64,000 nucleotides of DNA from Deltaproteobacteria bacterium (lineage in GTDB: Bacteria > Desulfobacterota > Deferrisomatia > Deferrisomatales > BM512): the NCBI GenBank assembly GCA_002869015.1, contig PKTT01000003.1:1-64000 (forward strand). The letters run 5' to 3'. Below the pieces are notes generated by a model. It had not been told where the DNA came from, did not search any database, and worked only from the letters and a program-made list of their open reading frames with translations. Below, piece by piece: positions 104 through 10,783 of this stretch (positions are counted from its first letter, which is position 1; every line of letters starts with the position of its first letter). The position numbers and the translations under genes were made by a program.

Positions 104-679
104 ATGAAGACAATAAATATCCTGCTCGCCGGTGTCGGGGGACAAGGGGTGCTCCTCGCCTCCAAAATTCTCTCCGAAGCGGCTTTGGTACAAGGCCTCG
201 ATATAAAGCAGAGCGAAGTTCACGGCATGAGCCAGCGCGGCGGGTCGGTTGTCAGCCATGTGCGCATCGGAGACAAGGTCCACTCTCCGCTTGTGCCCGA
301 TGGCTCCTGCGATATCCTAGTAGGGTTCGAGCCGCTGGAGGGCCTTCGCCACTCCCACAATGTTGCCGCTGACGGAACCCTCATCTATGCGCTGGACCGC
401 ATCAACCCCTCCACCGTTTCGGCCGGCTTTGCCGAATATCCGGCGGATACCGAGGAACAGTTAAAAGCGTTGCCAATAAAGACGATTGGTGTCCCCGCGG
501 CCAAATACGCAGAAGAAGCCGGTACACGCAGAGCTGCAAATGTGGTATTGGTAGGGGTGATGTCAAATTTGTTTGATTTTAAAACGGATGTTTGGGAAAA
601 GGCTCTAAAGGCGTCTGTCCCGGCGAAGGTGCTCGATACCAATATTAAAGCCTTCGAGCTGGGTAAGAAGCATATATAA
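104..679 (+). CDS. iorB: Indolepyruvate ferredoxin oxidoreductase beta subunit
   Basis: 191 aa; MKTINILLAGVGGQGVLLASKILSEAA and SQRGGSVVSHVRIG are typical of the 2-oxoacid oxidoreductase gamma-type domain (IorB). Confidence 0.88.
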   Translation: MKTINILLAGVGGQGVLLASKILSEAALVQGLDIKQSEVHGMSQRGGSVVSHVRIGDKVHSPLVPDGSCDILVGFEPLEGLRHSHNVAADGTLIYALDRINPSTVSAGFAEYPADTEEQLKALPIKTIGVPAAKYAEEAGTRRAANVVLVGVMSNLFDFKTDVWEKALKASVPAKVLDTNIKAFELGKKHI

Positions 680-713
680 ACCCCGTTTTACACCCAACAA
701 GAGGAGCACAACG

Positions 714-1772
714 ATGAAACAGATTAAAAGGATGGTAATCCTGGTTGCCCTGCTGGCGATGGCGCTGGTACCGGCTCTGGGCTTTGCAGCCTCCCCCGCC
801 GAGATGCTGGCGGCATGGAAGCCCAAATTCGACCCCTCCGGGGCAAAGTACGTTATGAAGGTTTCAAACGTATCTCACCCCGTGCTTGAGGGCGTCGGCG
901 CAGGATACAGGATTCGCGACCGTCTCTGGGAAGAGACCAACGGACAGATTTACTTCGATTACTACCCCCTCTCACAGCTTGGCGGTGAGGTGGAAGTTTT
1001 GAACCAGCTCATGATGGGCTCCGTTCAGGGGATGCTCTGCTCCTCCGTCGCAGCGGCCAACCTTGGCCCCAAGCTCGGCGTCGTCAACCTCCCCTTTCTG
1101 GTCAACTCCTTTGATAAGCTTGACAAGTTCGTCAGCGACAAAGAGATCTTTCAGCCCTTCCTCGATGGCGCGCTTGATAAGGGCGTAATGGCCGTTGACA
1201 TCACCGGCTACGGCAACTACGGCTGGGCTACGACCTCCCCCGTCAAAACTATCGCTGACGCCAAGACCCTCAAGTTCCGCATCGCAGAGGCTCCCGTCAA
1301 CAAGAGCCTTTACGCAGCCTGGGGCCTAAACCCGGTTGTTATGCCCTGGCCGGACGTACCCGTCGCCCTCAAGCAGGGCGTTATAGATGGCCTCGACCAC
1401 ACCCCGATGGTCTGCAATATCACCAAGAAGTTTGAGGTGGCGAAGTACTTCACGCAGATCAACTACGCTCAGGGCCTCTTCATCCACCTGGTCAACAAGG
1501 CTTGGTTCGACTCTCTTCCCGCAGACCTCCAGAAGACCCTTGTCAAGGTCATCCAGGAAGAGTGCGCAAATACCCGCGAGCTGACCCGCAAGCAGGAGGA
1601 CGAGCAGATCGCCAAGGCCAAGGCCGCCGGTATCGAATTCTTCACGCTCCCAGAGGCTGACATGGCTACCCTTAGGAAAGAGGGCGCCACGGTCATAAAA
1701 GAGTGGGAGAAGGAAATCGGCGCCGACTACCTGAAGAAGGTTGAGGAAGCACTGGACTACAAGGCAATGTAA
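714..1772 (+). CDS. dctP: TRAP transporter periplasmic solute-binding protein, DctP family
   Basis: Signal peptide, 352 aa, DctP-like body (NVSHPVLEGVGAGYRIRDRLWEETNGQ); followed by DctQ and DctM. Confidence 0.88.
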   Translation: MKQIKRMVILVALLAMALVPALGFAASPAEMLAAWKPKFDPSGAKYVMKVSNVSHPVLEGVGAGYRIRDRLWEETNGQIYFDYYPLSQLGGEVEVLNQLMMGSVQGMLCSSVAAANLGPKLGVVNLPFLVNSFDKLDKFVSDKEIFQPFLDGALDKGVMAVDITGYGNYGWATTSPVKTIADAKTLKFRIAEAPVNKSLYAAWGLNPVVMPWPDVPVALKQGVIDGLDHTPMVCNITKKFEVAKYFTQINYAQGLFIHLVNKAWFDSLPADLQKTLVKVIQEECANTRELTRKQEDEQIAKAKAAGIEFFTLPEADMATLRKEGATVIKEWEKEIGADYLKKVEEALDYKAM

Positions 1773-1788
1773 TTTAAGCGCTACAGTC

Positions 1789-1818
1789 AAACCGGGGGCA
1801 AGAGATTGCCCCCGGTTT
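1789..1818 (+). terminator. Intercistronic hairpin between dctP and dctQ (attenuator or RNA-stabilising stem)
   Basis: Perfect 12-bp stem AAACCGGGGGCA / TGCCCCCGGTTT with 6-nt loop AGAGAT. Confidence 0.6.
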
Positions 1819-1840
1819 ACCTTTATTATGGGAACAGACG

Positions 1841-2362
1841 ATGTTTCGTAAAGCTCTTTACTACCTTGACAAGGCCATCACCTTGTTTGAGGAATGGACG
1901 CTCTTTTTGACGGTGTCGGCAGCACTTGTCACCCTCTTCGTGAGCGTCGCTATGCGTTTCGGCGCAAGGTACGGCATAACCTCAACCCTGGCCTGGCCCG
2001 AAGAGTTCGTGCGCGAGGTCATCGTCTACTCCACATTCGTGGGGTGTGTCGCCGCGGTGAAGTCACGCTCTTTAATCCGCGTTGACGCGCTGCCGAATAT
2101 AGTCAAAAGCTGGAAAAAGCCGCTGGAGATACTATCGAATATAACGATGGTCTTTTTCGCCGTTTTTATAACATGGTTCGGCGTGAAGATGGCGCTCTTT
2201 CAGTACAAAATGGGTATGAGCACAATCATCCTCAAAATACCTCAGGTATGCCTCTACTCGATTCTTCCGATAATGGGGATTGGGATGCTTTGCAGACTGT
2301 TGCAAGTGTTTTACGAGGATATAACCGGCACCAAGGTTAGCGATCTGGAAGCGGGAGGCTAA
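1841..2362 (+). CDS. dctQ: TRAP transporter small permease, DctQ family
   Basis: 173 aa, 4-TM pattern with WPEEFVREVIVYSTFVGCVAAVKSRSLIRVD. Confidence 0.87.
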   Translation: MFRKALYYLDKAITLFEEWTLFLTVSAALVTLFVSVAMRFGARYGITSTLAWPEEFVREVIVYSTFVGCVAAVKSRSLIRVDALPNIVKSWKKPLEILSNITMVFFAVFITWFGVKMALFQYKMGMSTIILKIPQVCLYSILPIMGIGMLCRLLQVFYEDITGTKVSDLEAGG

Positions 2363-2368
2363 CGGCAC

Positions 2369-3682
2369 ATGGATACATCAATATTCTTTGCCCTTGGGCT
2401 TTTGCTCATTTTCCTCGCGCTGACAGTGCCGGTCTATCTGGCGCTATTCGCCACCGGCGTTCTTGGGTTGGTTTTCCTCTCCAACTCGATGCTCCCCTTC
2501 GATGTTCAGGCTTTGCAGCTTGTAGACGCCTTCTATAAGAGTATGGACAAATTCCCCCTTGTGGTGGTGCTATTCTTCATACTCTGCGGGAACATAATGA
2601 CCTCTGGGACAATCGTGGACAAGCTTATCAAGGTCGCCAAAGCGGTCGTAGGCTTCTTCCCCGGCGGGCTCGGCATGGCTGGAATTCTCGCTTGCGGGCT
2701 TTTCGGCGCGATCTCCGGCTCCACGGTCGCAACGGTCGTCGCTATCGGCAGCTTCATGATCCCCGCGCTCGTTGCAGAGGGCTACGATGAGAAGTACGCG
2801 GTTGGCGTTATGACGACCTCGCCGATTCTCGGCATCGTTATCCCGCCCTCCATCTCGATGATCCTCTACGCGATGATAACCAACGATTCGCTTGAAGCGC
2901 TCTTCATGACGGGCTTTGTTCCCGGCGTCCTTATCATCCTCAGCTTTTGCATCTACACCTACGTTGTCTGTAAGCGCGGCGGCATGAAGATGCAGAAGAT
3001 TATCCCCTTCGCCGAGTTCGTAAAGATAATGAAGGAGGGGATGTGGGCGCTGCTCCTGCCGATACTTATCTTCGGGGGCATCTTTTCAGGCGTCTTTACG
3101 GCGAATGAGGCTGCGGTAATAGCATGCGTCTACGCTTTCATCGTGGAGATATTCATCCACAAGGACATGACCTTCAGGCAGGCAAAGAAGGTTATCGTCT
3201 CCTCCGCGGTTACCTCCGCGACGCTGCTGATAATTGTTGCGGGCGCGACGGTCTTCGGAAAGTACCTTACGGTTGAGCGTATACCCGAGATGTTAACTGA
3301 GGCGGTAACCGCCTCAATAAGCTCGAAGGTAATGTTCCTCCTTGTTATGAACATCTTCCTTTTGATCGTCGGCATGTTCATGGACATCATCAGCGCGACG
3401 ATGATCCTGACGCCTGTATTTTTGCCGATGCTCTACCAGTTCGAGATAAATACCCTGCATTTCGGGCTTCTGATGACAATAAACCTTGGTATCGGCTACG
3501 TCACTCCTCCCATGGGGGTCAGCCTCTACATAACTGGAGCGGTGGCGGACAGGGACCTGATCTATGTTACCAAGGCTGTTGCGCCGTTTATCTTTATTCA
3601 GCTCGCAATCCTGGCCATCCTCACCTACTGGCCCGACGTGGTCCTCTTTCTTCCGAGGATTTTTTACCCGGGCGCGTTCTAG
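2369..3682 (+). CDS. dctM: TRAP transporter large permease, DctM family
   Basis: 437 aa polytopic protein; AISGSTVATVVAIGSFMIPALVAEGYDEKYAVGVMTTSPILGIVIPPS motif. Confidence 0.92.
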   Translation: MDTSIFFALGLLLIFLALTVPVYLALFATGVLGLVFLSNSMLPFDVQALQLVDAFYKSMDKFPLVVVLFFILCGNIMTSGTIVDKLIKVAKAVVGFFPGGLGMAGILACGLFGAISGSTVATVVAIGSFMIPALVAEGYDEKYAVGVMTTSPILGIVIPPSISMILYAMITNDSLEALFMTGFVPGVLIILSFCIYTYVVCKRGGMKMQKIIPFAEFVKIMKEGMWALLLPILIFGGIFSGVFTANEAAVIACVYAFIVEIFIHKDMTFRQAKKVIVSSAVTSATLLIIVAGATVFGKYLTVERIPEMLTEAVTASISSKVMFLLVMNIFLLIVGMFMDIISATMILTPVFLPMLYQFEINTLHFGLLMTINLGIGYVTPPMGVSLYITGAVADRDLIYVTKAVAPFIFIQLAILAILTYWPDVVLFLPRIFYPGAF

Positions 3683-3706
3683 CCGCCTTAACTTGAGGAG
3701 AGCTAC

Positions 3707-4555
3707 ATGCCTATGTCTGTAAAGATTTTGGTGCCGGTAGAGGATACTGAGGTGAGCAAGGCCGCTGAGGACGCATGCGCCTGCCTGGCAAAGTTTGTCG
3801 GAGCGGAGGTGACGCTCTTTCACACCACCGACATAAGCGGGGTGCAATATAAGAACCTCACGGAGACCCTCCTGGATTCTATACGCGTCAGCGCGAGAAG
3901 CACCGCCCACCGCTATCTAACAGCCCGCTCGGAGGCGATGGCGGCGCGCAGCGGGGTCCTCCCGAGAATTGTCTCGATGGAGGGGGAGCCCGCCGAGTGC
4001 GTAATCAGGGAGGCCAAACGGGGATATGATTTAGTGGTTATGGGAACTGAGGTTCATAGCGATCTCCGCTACATGTTTCTCGGCTCCGTTTCCAGCTCTC
4101 TCATCAAAGAGTCGCCGATTCCCGTGGTCGTTATAAAGAAAAACGGCCCAAATCTTTCGCAGTGCATTGATGGCAAGCCGGTAAAGGCGCTGGTTGCCGT
4201 TGATGACTCCAACGCCTCCAGAAGGTGCGTCGAGGCGCTAGCGAGGTTGGCGATACCCAATGCCTTCGATATCTCCCTGGTTCATGTAATGTCCAAGGAG
4301 TTCCCCACCTCCAAAGACCCGGAGGCTACGCTGGACCGTAATGAAAAGCGGTTGACTCTCGCGGGGTATACCCCGGATACTATCCTCGCCGAGGGCGACC
4401 CCGGCAAGGTCATCGCAGAGATTTGCGAAGTGGAGGGGTTTGAGATGGTCATCGCAGGTAAATCCAGGGGCAACGAGCTCCGGGAAACCCCGGCGATGGC
4501 CGTGGGACACTACCTCTTTCACCACTCCAAGGCCCACCAGATGATAGTCCCATGA
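3707..4555 (+). CDS. Tandem-domain universal stress protein (UspA family)
   Basis: 282 aa, two Usp-like halves (VKILVPVEDTEVSKAAEDA ... LVVMGTEVHSDLRYMFLGSVSSSLI ... VKALVAVDDSNASRRCVEAL). Confidence 0.87.
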   Translation: MPMSVKILVPVEDTEVSKAAEDACACLAKFVGAEVTLFHTTDISGVQYKNLTETLLDSIRVSARSTAHRYLTARSEAMAARSGVLPRIVSMEGEPAECVIREAKRGYDLVVMGTEVHSDLRYMFLGSVSSSLIKESPIPVVVIKKNGPNLSQCIDGKPVKALVAVDDSNASRRCVEALARLAIPNAFDISLVHVMSKEFPTSKDPEATLDRNEKRLTLAGYTPDTILAEGDPGKVIAEICEVEGFEMVIAGKSRGNELRETPAMAVGHYLFHHSKAHQMIVP

Positions 4556-4623: not shown

Positions 4624-6048
4624 ATGGACAACTTTTCAAAACTTACCGAGATACTAGCCGAGGCGATTGGCCCTTACGGTCTCCATGAGACGACCGTTGA
4701 GGCGATAGAGCACCTTGTTGATAACCGTTACGAGGGGCTTATCATTGTCGATGTGAATGGCCGCGTCGTCTACATGAACCGGGAGAATGAAAAGTTCCTT
4801 GGGCTGCCGAGGGGAGGGGCCAAGGGGCGGCACATTACAGAGCTGATACCGTCCAGCCGGCTGCACATCGTCTGCCGTGAGGGCAAAGCGGAGGTTGCGC
4901 AGATTCAGGAGGTTGACGGCGTTCTCAAGGTCTCCTCAAGAATCCCCATACGGAAGGATGGCAAGGTGATTGGCGCCATGGGCTCAATCATCTTCCATGA
5001 CGTAAAGGAGGTGGACAAGCTCTCGCGCCGGGTTAAAGTCCTTGAAGACCAAGTCGCGGTATACCAAAAGCGCCTCAAAGCAGTGCCCCAGCGTCAGCGC
5101 TATACATTTGAGAATATCCTAGGCGTAAGCGAGGCGATGCGCCGCACCACCTCCTTGGCGAAGCAGCTCTCCGCCTCCGGGGCGGATGTCCTTATCAGCG
5201 GGGAGACCGGCACCGGCAAGGAGCTCTTCGCCCACGCGATCCACAACGACAGCAACCGAGGTAATGGACCCTTCGTAAGGCTGAACTGTACGACGATCCC
5301 CCGCGAGCTAGCCGACAGCGAACTCTTCGGCTATGAGCCGGGGTCATTCTCAGGAGCCAAGCGAGAGGGGCAGGTGGGTAAGTTCGAGCAGGCCCACGGC
5401 GGAACAATCTTTCTCGATGAGATTGGCGACCTGCCCCTTGAAATCCAGGGTAAGCTCCTTCGCGTCCTTCAGGAGCGAGAGGTTGAGAGGATTGGAGGCA
5501 GCTCAATAAGATATGTTGACTTCCGCCTTATCGCCGCATCAAATATAGACTTGAAAGAGCTTACGGAGCAGGGCAAGTTTAGATTGGACCTCTACTTTAG
5601 GCTCTCCAAAATGCTCCTGCATATCCCCCCGTTGAGGGAACGCCCGGATGATATCCCCCTCTACGTCCGTCACTTCCTCGATACCCGCTTTACCTTTGAG
5701 GGGCGCCAGAGAGAGATAGCGCCGGAGGCAATGGACGCGCTCACACGTTACAGCTGGCCCGGCAATGCGCGTGAGCTTATGAACGTCATTGAGCGCGTGG
5801 CCTGGAACGCTAAGGGGCCCGAGATAAGCCTTGAAGATCTGCCGGCCGTAGTCCTTACCAACCAGAGTAAGCCCCACTCTCAAGAGGCGCCGCTTTCATT
5901 GGCGGAGACAGTGGAAGCTGCCGAACGCGACCTCATAACCCGCGTCCTTACCCTCACTGGAGGCAACAAAAAGCGAGCTGCCTCTATACTCGGAATCCAC
6001 CGAACCACCCTCTACGAGAAACTTTCAAAATACGGCCTCCTTCAGTGA
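4624..6048 (+). CDS. PAS-domain sigma-54-dependent transcriptional activator with Fis-type HTH
   Basis: PAS region (YEGLIIVDVNGRVVYMNRENEKFLGLPRGGAKGRHITELIP), Walker A GETGTGKE, GSFSGA loop, C-terminal GNKKRAASILGIHRTTLYEKLSKYG. Track start 4594 lies inside a hairpin, so ATG 4624 is preferred. Confidence 0.92.
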   Translation: MDNFSKLTEILAEAIGPYGLHETTVEAIEHLVDNRYEGLIIVDVNGRVVYMNRENEKFLGLPRGGAKGRHITELIPSSRLHIVCREGKAEVAQIQEVDGVLKVSSRIPIRKDGKVIGAMGSIIFHDVKEVDKLSRRVKVLEDQVAVYQKRLKAVPQRQRYTFENILGVSEAMRRTTSLAKQLSASGADVLISGETGTGKELFAHAIHNDSNRGNGPFVRLNCTTIPRELADSELFGYEPGSFSGAKREGQVGKFEQAHGGTIFLDEIGDLPLEIQGKLLRVLQEREVERIGGSSIRYVDFRLIAASNIDLKELTEQGKFRLDLYFRLSKMLLHIPPLRERPDDIPLYVRHFLDTRFTFEGRQREIAPEAMDALTRYSWPGNARELMNVIERVAWNAKGPEISLEDLPAVVLTNQSKPHSQEAPLSLAETVEAAERDLITRVLTLTGGNKKRAASILGIHRTTLYEKLSKYGLLQ

Positions 6049-6070
6049 AATAGCCCTTTTAGGTCAGCGG

Positions 6071-6088
6071 TGTAGCATATGCGGTACA
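6071..6088. promoter_or_regulatory. Candidate upstream activator site 1 (TGTAGC-N6-GGTACA)
   Basis: 18-bp dyad with one mismatch relative to TGTAGC-N6-GCTACA. Confidence 0.55.
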
Positions 6089-6106
6089 TGTAGTGAAAAT
6101 GCTACA
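6089..6106. promoter_or_regulatory. Candidate upstream activator site 2 (TGTAGT-N6-GCTACA)
   Basis: 18-bp dyad with one mismatch, directly abutting site 1. Confidence 0.55.
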
Positions 6107-6137
6107 CGTTTGCTATAACCCCACGCCCCATGGGCTT

Positions 6138-6161
6138 TGTAGCCTTGTGAAGCAAGGTACA
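6138..6161. promoter_or_regulatory. Variant half-site pair (TGTAGC-N12-GGTACA) in the same array
   Basis: Same half-sites as the 18-bp dyads but 12-nt spacing; inner CTTG/CAAG is also symmetric. Confidence 0.35.
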
Positions 6162-6169
6162 GCTTGGCG

Positions 6170-6187
6170 TGTAGCGTTATCGCTACA
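6170..6187. promoter_or_regulatory. Candidate upstream activator site 3 (TGTAGC-GTTATC-GCTACA)
   Basis: Perfect inverted repeat GTGTAGCG-TTAT-CGCTACAC (6169-6188), about 85 bp upstream of the -24/-12 element. Confidence 0.65.
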
Positions 6188-6271
6188 CTTATCTGGTCGA
6201 ATTGATTGACCAGGTTCCTTGTTCGCCTGTAAGTATCTAATAATACAGCTAAAAATATTATAAAACAATGG

Positions 6272-6287
6272 TGGCACGCCTCTTGCT
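6272..6287 (+). promoter_or_regulatory. Sigma-54 (-24/-12) promoter
   Basis: TGGCACG-CCTC-TTGCT matches the TGGCACG-N4-TTGCW consensus; downstream of a sigma-54 activator gene. Confidence 0.9.
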
Positions 6288-6335: not shown

Positions 6336-6473
6336 ATGATGACGGAAGCATTCGGCATACTTTTCGGGGGCATAGTTAGCGTCTTTTGCGGGATGGCGCT
6401 GCTTTACATTTCGATTAAGGTTACCGGCAAAGCTGTAGCCAAAGTAACGAGCGGGGAGAAATCCGATGGATAA
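6336..6473 (+). CDS. Short OadG/GcdD-like membrane subunit of a Na+-translocating decarboxylase
   Basis: About 45 aa with one TM (AFGILFGGIVSVFCGMALLYISIKVTGKAV), immediately 5-prime of an OadB-type gene; start moved to ATG 6336, downstream of the predicted TSS. Confidence 0.6.
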   Translation: MMTEAFGILFGGIVSVFCGMALLYISIKVTGKAVAKVTSGEKSDG

Positions 6474-7596
6474 CAGCATAGTCTCCTCACTCACTTCGGT
6501 TTTTACAAGCAGCGGCTTCACCGCTGTGACATGGCAGGGCTGTGTGATGTGGGCGCTGGCGCTTGGACTTCTCTACCTCGCAATCAAGAAAAAATTCGAG
6601 CCGCTCCTCCTTTTGCCGATAGCTTTCGGTATTATATCGGCCAATTTACCCATGACCGGCCTGATGGAGCCGGGTCACGGCCTGCTTTGGCAGTTTTACG
6701 CCTATGGCATAAAGAGCGAGGTTATCCCCCCGATTATTTTTCTGGGGCTTGGCGCCCTTACGGATTTCGGCCCGATGCTCAGTCAGCCAAGGCTCATATT
6801 TTTGGGCGCCGGGGCACAGGTTGGCGTCTTCGTAACGTTCTTTGGCGCTCACCTTATTGGGTTCAACCTCTCCGAGGCTGCGACAATAGGTATAATCGGC
6901 GGAGCTGACGGGCCGACGACAATTTTCCTCGCCACCAAACTCGCTCCCCATCTCTTAGGGACTGTTGCAGTAGCTGCATACTCCTATATGGCGCTTGTTC
7001 CGCTCATTCAGCCTCCGATTATGAAGCTGATGACCAGCGAGGATGAGCGCAAGATAAGGATGAAGCCCTCCCGTAAGGTGCACCCCGTCGAGAAGATACT
7101 TTTCCCGATAATTTCGGCGATGCTCCTCATACTGCTGATTCCGGCCTCCGCGCCCCTTATGGCGATGTTCATGCTGGGCAACCTATTCCGTGAGTCCAAG
7201 GTGGTTGAGCGCCTCGTTGAGGCCAGCCAAAATGAGCTTATGAATATCGCGACGATCTTCCTTGGTGTCTCGGTCGGCGCGACGATGAACGCCGAAAACT
7301 TTCTTACCCCCAAGGTTATATTCGTCTTCTTCCTTGGCTTGGCCGCCTTCGCCGTTTCAACTGCGAGCGGAATACTGATAGCCAAGGGGATGAATTTGTT
7401 CAGCAAAGATAAGATAAATCCTCTCCTCGGCGCAGCTGGCGTTTCGGCCGTCCCAATGGCGGCGCGTGTCGTTCACAAGGTTGGCACCGAGGCTGACAAG
7501 AGAAACTATCTCCTCATGTATGCCATGGCACCGAATATAGCCGGGGTAATCGGAACTCTCATCGCGGCGGGCGTCTTTGTCTCGCTGCTCAAATGA
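6466..7596 (+). CDS. gcdB: Sodium-ion-translocating decarboxylase beta subunit (GcdB/OadB family)
   Basis: 376 aa polytopic protein with GLGALTDFGPMLSQP and GIIGGADGPTTIFLATKLAP. Confidence 0.9.
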   Translation: MDNSIVSSLTSVFTSSGFTAVTWQGCVMWALALGLLYLAIKKKFEPLLLLPIAFGIISANLPMTGLMEPGHGLLWQFYAYGIKSEVIPPIIFLGLGALTDFGPMLSQPRLIFLGAGAQVGVFVTFFGAHLIGFNLSEAATIGIIGGADGPTTIFLATKLAPHLLGTVAVAAYSYMALVPLIQPPIMKLMTSEDERKIRMKPSRKVHPVEKILFPIISAMLLILLIPASAPLMAMFMLGNLFRESKVVERLVEASQNELMNIATIFLGVSVGATMNAENFLTPKVIFVFFLGLAAFAVSTASGILIAKGMNLFSKDKINPLLGAAGVSAVPMAARVVHKVGTEADKRNYLLMYAMAPNIAGVIGTLIAAGVFVSLLK

Positions 7597-7623: not shown

Positions 7624-7839
7624 ATGGAAGAGGTACGCGCACCTATGTCTGGTAACGTCTGGAAAATCGAATGCGCCGAGGGCGACTCTGTATCCCTTGA
7701 CGACGCCGTCATCGTTATGGAGGTGATGAAGATGGAGGCTGAAGTTTTCGCCACCGCCGACGGCACCATAGCTGAAATAAAAGTAAAAGAGGGGCAGGCT
7801 GTCGAAGAGGGCGACCTGCTCATGACGATAAATCCCTAG
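7624..7839 (+). CDS. gcdC: Biotin carrier protein (decarboxylase gamma-type subunit)
   Basis: 71 aa biotinyl domain with VMEVMKMEAEV biotinylation motif. Confidence 0.88.
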   Translation: MEEVRAPMSGNVWKIECAEGDSVSLDDAVIVMEVMKMEAEVFATADGTIAEIKVKEGQAVEEGDLLMTINP

Positions 7840-7870: not shown

Positions 7871-9028
7871 ATGAATTTTGAGCTGACCCCCGAACAGAAG
7901 ATGGTACAGGAGCAGGCGCGCCGCTTTGCCGAGAACGAGATCAAGCCATATGTAGAAGAGGAAGAAAAAAATCACGCCTTTTCACTGGAGCGCGTCCGCC
8001 AGATGGCAGACCTCGGCTTCTTCGGCTGCGGCATCAAAGAGGAGTACGGCGGCAACGGCATGGGCATCCTGGAGTCTGTCCTCCTAGCCGAGCAGGTCGC
8101 GAAGGTAAGCCCCTCCTGGAGGCTCCCCTTCAACATGCAGAACATCGGCCCTGCCCTCACCGTGCAGAAGTTCGGCAACGAAGAGCAGAAGCAGAACTTC
8201 ATTCCCAAGTGGGTAAGCGGCGAGAACGTAGGCTTCTTCGCGATAACCGAGCCCAACTCCGGCTCCGACGTCGCGGGCATGAAGACCAACGCCAAGCTCG
8301 ATGGCGACGAGTGGGTAATTAACGGCCAGAAGACCTGGATCTCCAACGCCCACATCGGCGACTGGGGCCTGCTCTACGCCTACACCGACCGCGACGCCAA
8401 GTACAAAGGCATGACATGCTTCCTCATCAACCTGAAAGAGACCCCCGGCGTAACCACCCAGGCGATTGAGACCAAGCTCGGCCTCTACTCCGCCCCCACC
8501 GGCGAGGTTCAGTTCGACGACGCCCGCATCCCCAAGGACGCAGTTCTCGGCGAGGTAGGCGACGGCTTCAAGATTTGCATGTGGCAGCTGAACAACACCC
8601 GCATCGGTTGCGCCGCCGGCGCACTCGGCTGCGCGGGCGGGCTCATCGACCTCGCCCTCCAGTACTGTGAGGACCGCACCCAGTTCGGTCGTCCCATCGG
8701 GCAGTTCCAGATGATCCAGTCCTCCATTGCCGAGCTTATCGTGGAGCACCATGCAGCGCAGCTGCTCGTATACCGCGCCGCCTTCCTGAAAGATCAGGGT
8801 AAGCCCAACCAGTATGAGACCTCCATGGCGAAGTATTACTCCGCCGAGGCCGCCGTCCACGCAGCCAACGAAGTCATGAAGATTTACGGCTCCTGGGGCT
8901 TCTCCACTGAGTACCCCGTCGAGCGCTACTTCAGGGACGCGAAGTCCTACCAGGTGGTTGAGGGTACCTCCAACATCCAGAAGACGATCATCGCCGGCAT
9001 CGCTATGGGTACCGCCCAGAACCGCTAA
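7871..9028 (+). CDS. Acyl-CoA dehydrogenase; probable non-decarboxylating glutaryl-CoA dehydrogenase
   Basis: 385 aa; AITEPNSGSD, RTQFGRPIGQFQ and VVEGTSNIQK motifs; lies between biotin carrier and GcdA. Confidence 0.85.
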   Translation: MNFELTPEQKMVQEQARRFAENEIKPYVEEEEKNHAFSLERVRQMADLGFFGCGIKEEYGGNGMGILESVLLAEQVAKVSPSWRLPFNMQNIGPALTVQKFGNEEQKQNFIPKWVSGENVGFFAITEPNSGSDVAGMKTNAKLDGDEWVINGQKTWISNAHIGDWGLLYAYTDRDAKYKGMTCFLINLKETPGVTTQAIETKLGLYSAPTGEVQFDDARIPKDAVLGEVGDGFKICMWQLNNTRIGCAAGALGCAGGLIDLALQYCEDRTQFGRPIGQFQMIQSSIAELIVEHHAAQLLVYRAAFLKDQGKPNQYETSMAKYYSAEAAVHAANEVMKIYGSWGFSTEYPVERYFRDAKSYQVVEGTSNIQKTIIAGIAMGTAQNR

Positions 9029-9049: not shown

Positions 9050-10783
9050 ATGAAAAGATATTTTGAACATATGCCGACCTTCGGCTCGCCGCTGACCGAC
9101 CGGCAGCTTGAGACCACCGTGGAGAACCTCCGCGACATCAAGGCTGTGGAGGAGGAGTACGCGGCGGCGGTCGAGGCGGTAAAAAATGCGGGTATCCCCA
9201 CGGAGAAGGTTAATTCCCGTGGTCAGATGACCGTTTGGCAGCGCCTTGAGTACCTCGTTGACGAGGGAACTTGGTGCCCGCTCAACACCGTTTATAACCC
9301 GTTGGACAATAATTACGGCACCACCGGCGTAATTAACGGCCTCGCCAAGATCAGCGGCAAATGGGCCGTAGTCATCGGCTTTGACAACAAGGTGCTCGCG
9401 GGCGCATGGATCGCCGGGCAGTCGGAGAACATCCTGCGCGCCACGGACCAGGCGAAGCGCCTCAATATCCCGCTCGTCTGGCTCGTCAACTGTAGCGGCG
9501 TCGATCTGCCGAATCAGGAGCAGGTTTACGCGGGCAGGCGCGGCAGCGGCACCACCTTCTTCCGCCACGCCGAGCTACAGCAGATGGGCGTGCCGGTACT
9601 CGCCGCGATCTACGGCACCAACCCTGCGGGCGGCGGCTACCAGTCGATCAGCCCCACGGTCCTCTTCGCCCACAAGGACGCCAACATGGCGGTCGGCGGC
9701 GGCGGTATCGTTTCCGGCATGAGCCCCAAGGGCGGCTTTGACGAGGAGGGCTGTCAGCCCCTCATCGACGCGACCCGCAAGTTCAAGGCGGTCGCTCCGG
9801 GCCGGGTTGAAATTCACCATGATGTTACAGGGTTTTTCCGCTACGTCTCAGACGCTGAGACCGGCGTCCTCGACGGCATCAAAGAGTACATGGCTGAGAT
9901 GCCAGCCTACAAGCCGCGCTTCTTCCGCGTGGCCGAGCCAAAGGAGCCGTTGTTCAAGCCCTCCGAGCTCGATCGTATCGTGCCCTTTAACCAGAAGCGG
10001 ACTTACTCCCTTACGCAGGTTCTCGCAAGGCTGGTCGACGGCTCCGAGCACATGGAGTTCCGCCCCGACTACGGCCCGGAGGTTTACTGCGGCCTCGTCA
10101 AGGTGGACGGTTACCTAGTAGCGGCTATCGGCAACCAGCAGGGCTTTTTGCCCCACGGCTACCCCGAATACGCCGACTATCCCGGCATAGGCGGCAAGCT
10201 CTACCGTCAGGGTCTCATCAAGATGAATGAGTTCGTGACGATGTGCGGCCGTGACCGCATCCCGATAATGTGGTTCCATGACACCAGCGGCATCGACGTC
10301 GGCGACATCGCTGAGCAGGCGGAGCTCCTCGGCCTCGGTCAGTCGCTCATCTACTCCATCGAGCAGACCGAAGTGCCGCAAATGCTCGTCGTCTTAAGAA
10401 AGGCGAGCGCGGCGGCTCACTACGTCATGGGCGGCCCCACGGCCAACAACCACAACACCTTCACCCTCGGCACTCCCACCACCGAGGTCTACGTCATGCA
10501 TGGCGAGACCGCGGCGGCAGCCTCCTTCGCGAGGCGTCTGGTGAAGGAGCAAGATGCAGGCAAGCCCCTCGGGCCGGTCATCGACAAGATGAACGACCTC
10601 GTGGAAGCCTATCAGGCCAAGTCCCGCCCGCTCTTTTGCGCAAAGAGCGGCTTCGTGGACGAGATCGTACGCATGCCTGAAATCCGTAAGTACATGGTCG
10701 CCTTCGCAGGGGCCGCGTACCAGAATCCGCGCTCAATCTGCGCGCAGCACCAGCTTGTAACGCCACGCCTCATAAAGGGATAG
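9050..10783 (+). CDS. gcdA: Glutaconyl-CoA decarboxylase alpha subunit (carboxyltransferase)
   Basis: 577 aa; strong resemblance to remembered Acidaminococcus GcdA (GIGGKLYRQGLIKMNEFVTMCGRDRIPIMWFHDTSGIDVG, SRPLFCAKSGFVDEIV). Confidence 0.88.
   Translation: MKRYFEHMPTFGSPLTDRQLETTVENLRDIKAVEEEYAAAVEAVKNAGIPTEKVNSRGQMTVWQRLEYLVDEGTWCPLNTVYNPLDNNYGTTGVINGLAKISGKWAVVIGFDNKVLAGAWIAGQSENILRATDQAKRLNIPLVWLVNCSGVDLPNQEQVYAGRRGSGTTFFRHAELQQMGVPVLAAIYGTNPAGGGYQSISPTVLFAHKDANMAVGGGGIVSGMSPKGGFDEEGCQPLIDATRKFKAVAPGRVEIHHDVTGFFRYVSDAETGVLDGIKEYMAEMPAYKPRFFRVAEPKEPLFKPSELDRIVPFNQKRTYSLTQVLARLVDGSEHMEFRPDYGPEVYCGLVKVDGYLVAAIGNQQGFLPHGYPEYADYPGIGGKLYRQGLIKMNEFVTMCGRDRIPIMWFHDTSGIDVGDIAEQAELLGLGQSLIYSIEQTEVPQMLVVLRKASAAAHYVMGGPTANNHNTFTLGTPTTEVYVMHGETAAAASFARRLVKEQDAGKPLGPVIDKMNDLVEAYQAKSRPLFCAKSGFVDEIVRMPEIRKYMVAFAGAAYQNPRSICAQHQLVTPRLIKG

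Follow-up and report, generated by a model that had tools for sequence, protein, structure and literature searches.

The window, that is, the whole stretch of 64,000 nucleotides analysed here, belongs to a genome (G000) of 67 contigs and 2.53 Mb. It carries a gene encoding a σ54-dependent activator, followed by an intergenic region with several inverted repeats, a -24/-12 promoter and a decarboxylase operon (Table 1). Upstream of the activator gene, on the same strand (104-4555), lie genes for the beta subunit of an indolepyruvate ferredoxin oxidoreductase, a TRAP transporter (DctPQM) and a universal stress protein, a gene order retained in the sister species. The activator consists of PAS, AAA+ and Fis-type HTH domains, in this order, with the σ54-contact loop GSFSGA and the recognition helix GIHRTTLYEK. 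Its Sigma54_activat domain (PF00158) gave 216 bits, which places the protein encoded next to the dyads among the σ54 activators. The loop of most of the 108 relatives studied is GAFTGA, whereas GSFSGA is a conservative variant of it common to the orthologs of the window's order (G008 has GAFSGA), the double variant being found in only 8 of the 108 proteins, all from this order. Loops with only one of these two changes, GAFSGA and GSFTGA, count as functional (PMC4641369). The best-matching NCBIfam model was that of PrdR (NF041552), with a score of 429.7 bits below its cut-off of 795, and the activator was therefore not called a member; the TyrR model matched at 238 bits (cut-off 576). The genome contains one rpoN gene and 16 strong σ54-activator domains.

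Table 1. Coordinates of the features at the activator locus and in the predicted target operon.
Feature	Position	Strand	Evidence
σ54-dependent activator gene	4624..6048	+	Pfam PF00158, PF00989, PF02954; orthologs
Dyad 1, TGTAGCATATGCGGTACA	6071..6088		Motif scan, sister-species comparison
Dyad 2, TGTAGTGAAAATGCTACA, abuts dyad 1	6089..6106		Motif scan, sister-species comparison
N12 variant TGTAGC-N12-GGTACA, doubtful site, only left arm conserved	6138..6161		Sister-species comparison
Dyad 3, TGTAGCGTTATCGCTACA, 81 bp from dyad 2	6170..6187		Motif scan, sister-species comparison
-24/-12 promoter, TGGCACGCCTCTTGCT	6272..6287	+	Promoter scan; 14/16 bases kept in the sister species, read at 6271-6286
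OadG-like small subunit, first operon gene	6336..6473	+	Weak match below family cut-off
Sodium-pump decarboxylase beta subunit (OadB-like)	6466..7596	+	TIGR01109, 494 bits
Biotin carrier protein	7624..7839	+	PF00364
Acyl-CoA dehydrogenase like glutaryl-CoA dehydrogenase	7871..9028	+	NF045552, 448 bits (cut-off 470)
Glutaconyl-CoA decarboxylase alpha-like subunit	9050..10783	+	3gf3 (E 4.6e-222), 1pix

The promoter is a perfect -24/-12 sequence, and no other position in the 64 kb comes within one mismatch of it. It starts 84, 165 and 183 bp downstream of dyads 3, 2 and 1, respectively, in agreement with the first-pass annotation, which had placed the dyads between the activator gene and this promoter, about 85-200 bp upstream of it. 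Both elements expected of a σ54 enhancer, a -24/-12 promoter about 80-250 bp downstream and rpoN in the genome, were thus found. The closest solved relatives of the decarboxylase alpha-like subunit are 3gf3 and 1pix. The set of enzymes suggests that the operon serves to oxidise glutaryl-CoA to crotonyl-CoA, the decarboxylation being presumably coupled to sodium export.

The positions first given for the three 18-bp dyads and the N12 variant were all correct, and the three dyads fit the TGT/ACA inverted-repeat class with half-sites 12 bp apart. The genome-wide search proposed with them for TGTAGY-N6-GSTACA was carried out and found four exact places in 2.53 Mb, namely dyads 1-3 and a match inside an ORF (G000:C2:28254), which was discarded for this location as a chance occurrence. 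When up to two mismatches were allowed, the window gave 16 matches (7.3 expected), all three exact ones being at this locus. The abutting pair, TGT-N12-ACATGT-N12-ACA, occurs a single time in the genome, and allowing one mismatch adds no further copy. The dyads are real, conserved, as described below, and almost unique in the genome. Another candidate between dctP and dctQ (TGTAATTTAAGCGCTACA, 1768-1785) is lost in the sister species and has no -24/-12 sequence near it, and it was attributed to chance.

Conservation was studied by comparison with the sister species (G001, contig PKTU01000089.1, a Deltaproteobacteria MAG), whose activator is 97% identical. The half-site cores, taken as five bases per arm, were identical at 30/30 positions, the inner 8 bp of the dyads at 15/24 and the rest of the intergenic region, with the N12 block set aside, at 61/132 (46%); the difference between the cores and all other non-dyad bases (89/168) was significant (Fisher, 6e-8). 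Two other elements of the first description did not withstand this comparison. The 9-bp perfect outer repeat, GTGTAGCAT/ATGCTACAC at 6070-6078/6099-6107, is reduced to GTGTAG/CTACAC in the sister species and is thus a by-product of two adjoining sites, and in the N12 variant only the left arm is shared, CGCACA standing there in place of GGTACA. The segment 6133-6152 (GGCTTTGTAGCCTTGTGAAG), of which only the left half fits the dyad motif, is identical at 20/20 positions, better than its surroundings.

In activator relatives at 61-72% identity the layout is mostly retained and the letters are altered. The array of G009 is TGTCGTGATTTCACGACA abutting TGTCGTATGCTGTAGACA, plus TGTCCATGAAATCCGACA, and that of G011 is similar; G008 has an abutting pair with decayed inner arms (TGTAGGGCAAGCGCATCA and TGCCCGGATTTTCCTACA), together with TGTAGGAGAGTCCCTACA and a promoter that departs from consensus at one base. 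The G006 operon lies on another contig than the activator gene and adjoins a divergent ORF that does not resemble the genes upstream in the window. It keeps the pair TGTCGGGCGGGTCAGACA and TGTTGGGTATTCTGTACA, with a third dyad following at about 80 bp and the promoter at 165 bp from the pair. No such array was found in the flanks of the G006 activator gene, and the array thus belongs to the promoter. The distance between the third dyad, measured at its end, and the -24 element was 84 bp in G000 and G001, about 86 in G006, G007 and G011, and 87 in G009; from the pair it was 165 bp in G000, G001 and G006, 152 in G007, 153 in G011 and 154 in G009. G005, whose activator is 69% identical, showed one degenerate dyad and no clear promoter. 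Lack of conservation at orthologous loci had been named as one of the results that would refute the proposal; the dyads are conserved in the orthologs, weakly in G005.

To avoid choosing loci by the motif, 108 activators across the phylum were picked by protein similarity alone and their flanks were then scanned. Many of these loci are related, so the counts that follow are not independent events. Spacers of TGT-Nk-ACA peaked at k=12, with 107 occurrences downstream and 61 upstream (3-22 for most other k), and a second peak at k=30 corresponds to the outer arms of abutting pairs. Strict dyads were present at 85/108 loci (13 in shuffles), an abutting pair at exactly 18 bp at 43 (none in shuffles) and a pair plus a third dyad at 22. 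Distances between dyad centres peaked at 18 (43 pairs), 70 and 88 (70+18), shuffled flanks giving a mean of 0.04 per distance. From the pair to the third dyad, distances were mainly 66-71, 80-82 and 92-93 bp, that is, about 70, 81 and 92, with a periodicity near 11 bp (p 0.005 for unique distances at 21 loci, kinship uncorrected). At loci with pair, third dyad and promoter, the third dyad usually lies 82-108 bp before -24. In addition, the bare pattern TGTN12ACATGTN12ACA gave 65 matches over 395 genomes, the G007 copy being taken from the analysis of the 108 flanks, compared with 22 when the pattern was reversed; of the 65, 27 were at most 300 bp from an activator gene and none was inside one.

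The recognition helix was also compared with the half-sites of related activators. The residue after the helix arginine tracks base 4 of the half-site, threonine or valine going with TGTA (63/67) and serine, alanine or glycine with TGTC (14/14; Fisher, 1.7e-12), but on the tree the change took place independently just twice (sign test, p 0.5). The rule fails in the Firmicutes relatives, whose dyads are N11, and in G006, which has TGTC and TGTT sites with an HRTT helix. Because of the two switches, the Firmicutes and the G006 misfit, a simple recognition code was rejected and the covariation is kept as a lead.

We consider that the three dyads very probably serve the activator encoded immediately before them as its upstream activating sequence, as initially proposed. 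This prediction is supported by the position of the sites, their conservation in orthologs, the promoter and the presence of rpoN, and the pairing of activator and sites is suggested by position, conservation and partial helix/base covariation. Points that speak against it are the uncommon GSFSGA loop, the single degenerate dyad of G005 and the limits of the covariation, which fails to predict the G006 sites. Each 18-bp dyad would bind one activator dimer through the Fis-type HTH, which would read TGTAG/CTACA. The abutting dyads would then hold two dimers side by side and the third, about 80 bp nearer the promoter, another one, so that three dimers would supply the six subunits of the active AAA+ ring. 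Once the PAS domain has sensed its signal, for which a glutarate or aromatic catabolite is our guess, this ring may loop to RNA polymerase-σ54 at 6272-6287 and open the promoter that drives the sodium-pumping glutaconyl-CoA decarboxylase operon. The model was built on the three sites needed by NorR and on the cooperation of weak boxes in TyrR. Locally, it assigns a predicted regulator to an energy-conserving decarboxylase operon of an uncultured organism.

That the dyads bind another dimeric regulator, a repressor or a TyrR-like protein modulating the same promoter while the adjacent activator uses other sites, seems improbable to us. The TyrR box, TGTAAA-N6-TTTACA, is likewise an 18-bp palindrome bound by a related protein, and the outer TGTA/TACA arms and the G-N14-C spacing of the dyads match it (PMC4374768). 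Weak boxes of odd spacing beside strong ones are a further resemblance, and in TyrR a weak box is bound only with the help of a neighbouring strong one (PMC4374768). The G006 dyads, which break the helix/base rule, also fit a different regulator. The dyad arms continue with G and C/T, not with the inner AA/TT, so that none qualifies as a strong box, for which the published count is ten matches (PMC4374768); the promoter here is of σ54 type and the protein has a near-standard σ54-contact loop. Against a different regulator, the same class of dyad flanks 85 of the 108 related activators, the array has no second conserved regulator gene next to it and every intergenic exact match in the genome sits at this locus.

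It is still harder to credit that the inverted repeats act as RNA, either terminating transcription of the activator gene or forming an attenuator hairpin. The region 6160-6225 does fold unusually well as RNA (z -5.4), and a strong terminator-like hairpin (CTGGTC ... GACCAG) was called at 6191-6215, between dyad 3 and the promoter. This hairpin, however, is not conserved in the sister species (8/25 bases), whereas the dyads lie upstream of the promoter without a T run and their conservation tracks half-sites rather than stem pairing; an Rfam search gave no match. Chance palindromes in AT-richer intergenic DNA were the least credible possibility. Two-copy palindromes are indeed common by chance, and the loose matches expected in 64 kb have been given above, but conservation of all core bases and a geometry repeated across the phylum refute this reading.

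The preferred reading, an upstream activating sequence of the neighbouring activator, does not make the motif novel, as it had been called. Sites with TGT/ACA half-sites 9-12 bp apart, the TGT-N12-ACA form included, have been published for EBPs of Desulfovibrio and Clostridiales, among them PrdR (PMC4641369, PMC6615313). These are σ54 activators with a Fis-type HTH, more than one site and usually few target operons, often adjoining the activator gene, as here. Their sites lie mostly 100-250 bp from -24/-12 in Clostridiales, and often no more than 100 bp from it in Desulfovibrio. The target in the present case is, in contrast, a glutaconyl-CoA decarboxylase operon. Neither abutment at 18 bp nor a third site at a preferred distance is mentioned in the available text of these papers (PMC4641369, PMC6615313), and no description of abutting 18-bp dyads was found in the open-access literature. 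The layout, not the motif, therefore appears to be new, a provisional claim as the literature search was largely open-access.

How DNA-bound activator dimers become a working hexamer is still debated. The sensor of NorR is a GAF domain, compared with PAS here, and its site sequence differs. At norVW three sites likewise precede one σ54 promoter, and NorR requires them to hydrolyse ATP and to form a higher-order oligomer (PMC2941729); at the present locus three dyads are found. We lean towards a conserved "2+1" enhancer grammar for the PAS-type σ54 activators of this phylum, in which two gapless 18-bp dyads would be followed, about 6-9 turns downstream, by a third that faces a similar side of the helix and, about 8-10 turns further, by -24/-12, templating one hexamer from three dimers. 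If so, the DNA layout would report directly how the ring is nucleated. Its recurrence in dozens of promoters offers spacings that can be put to the test (18 bp, followed by about 70/81/92 bp and by about 84 bp), and TGTN12ACATGTN12ACA is a simple search rule for finding σ54 activator genes, with their targets, where a genome lacks annotation. In the Firmicutes relatives (Desulfosporosinus, Fusibacter, Tissierellia and others) dyads of 17 bp are frequent, and some of these also abut, at 17-18 bp. Finally, at locus L053 (1501-1536) the abutting pair beside another activator gene is as a whole a perfect higher-order palindrome, TGTCCGAAATGTCGGACATGTCCGACATTTCGGACA, and one in-frame TAG occurs within the activator match at this locus.
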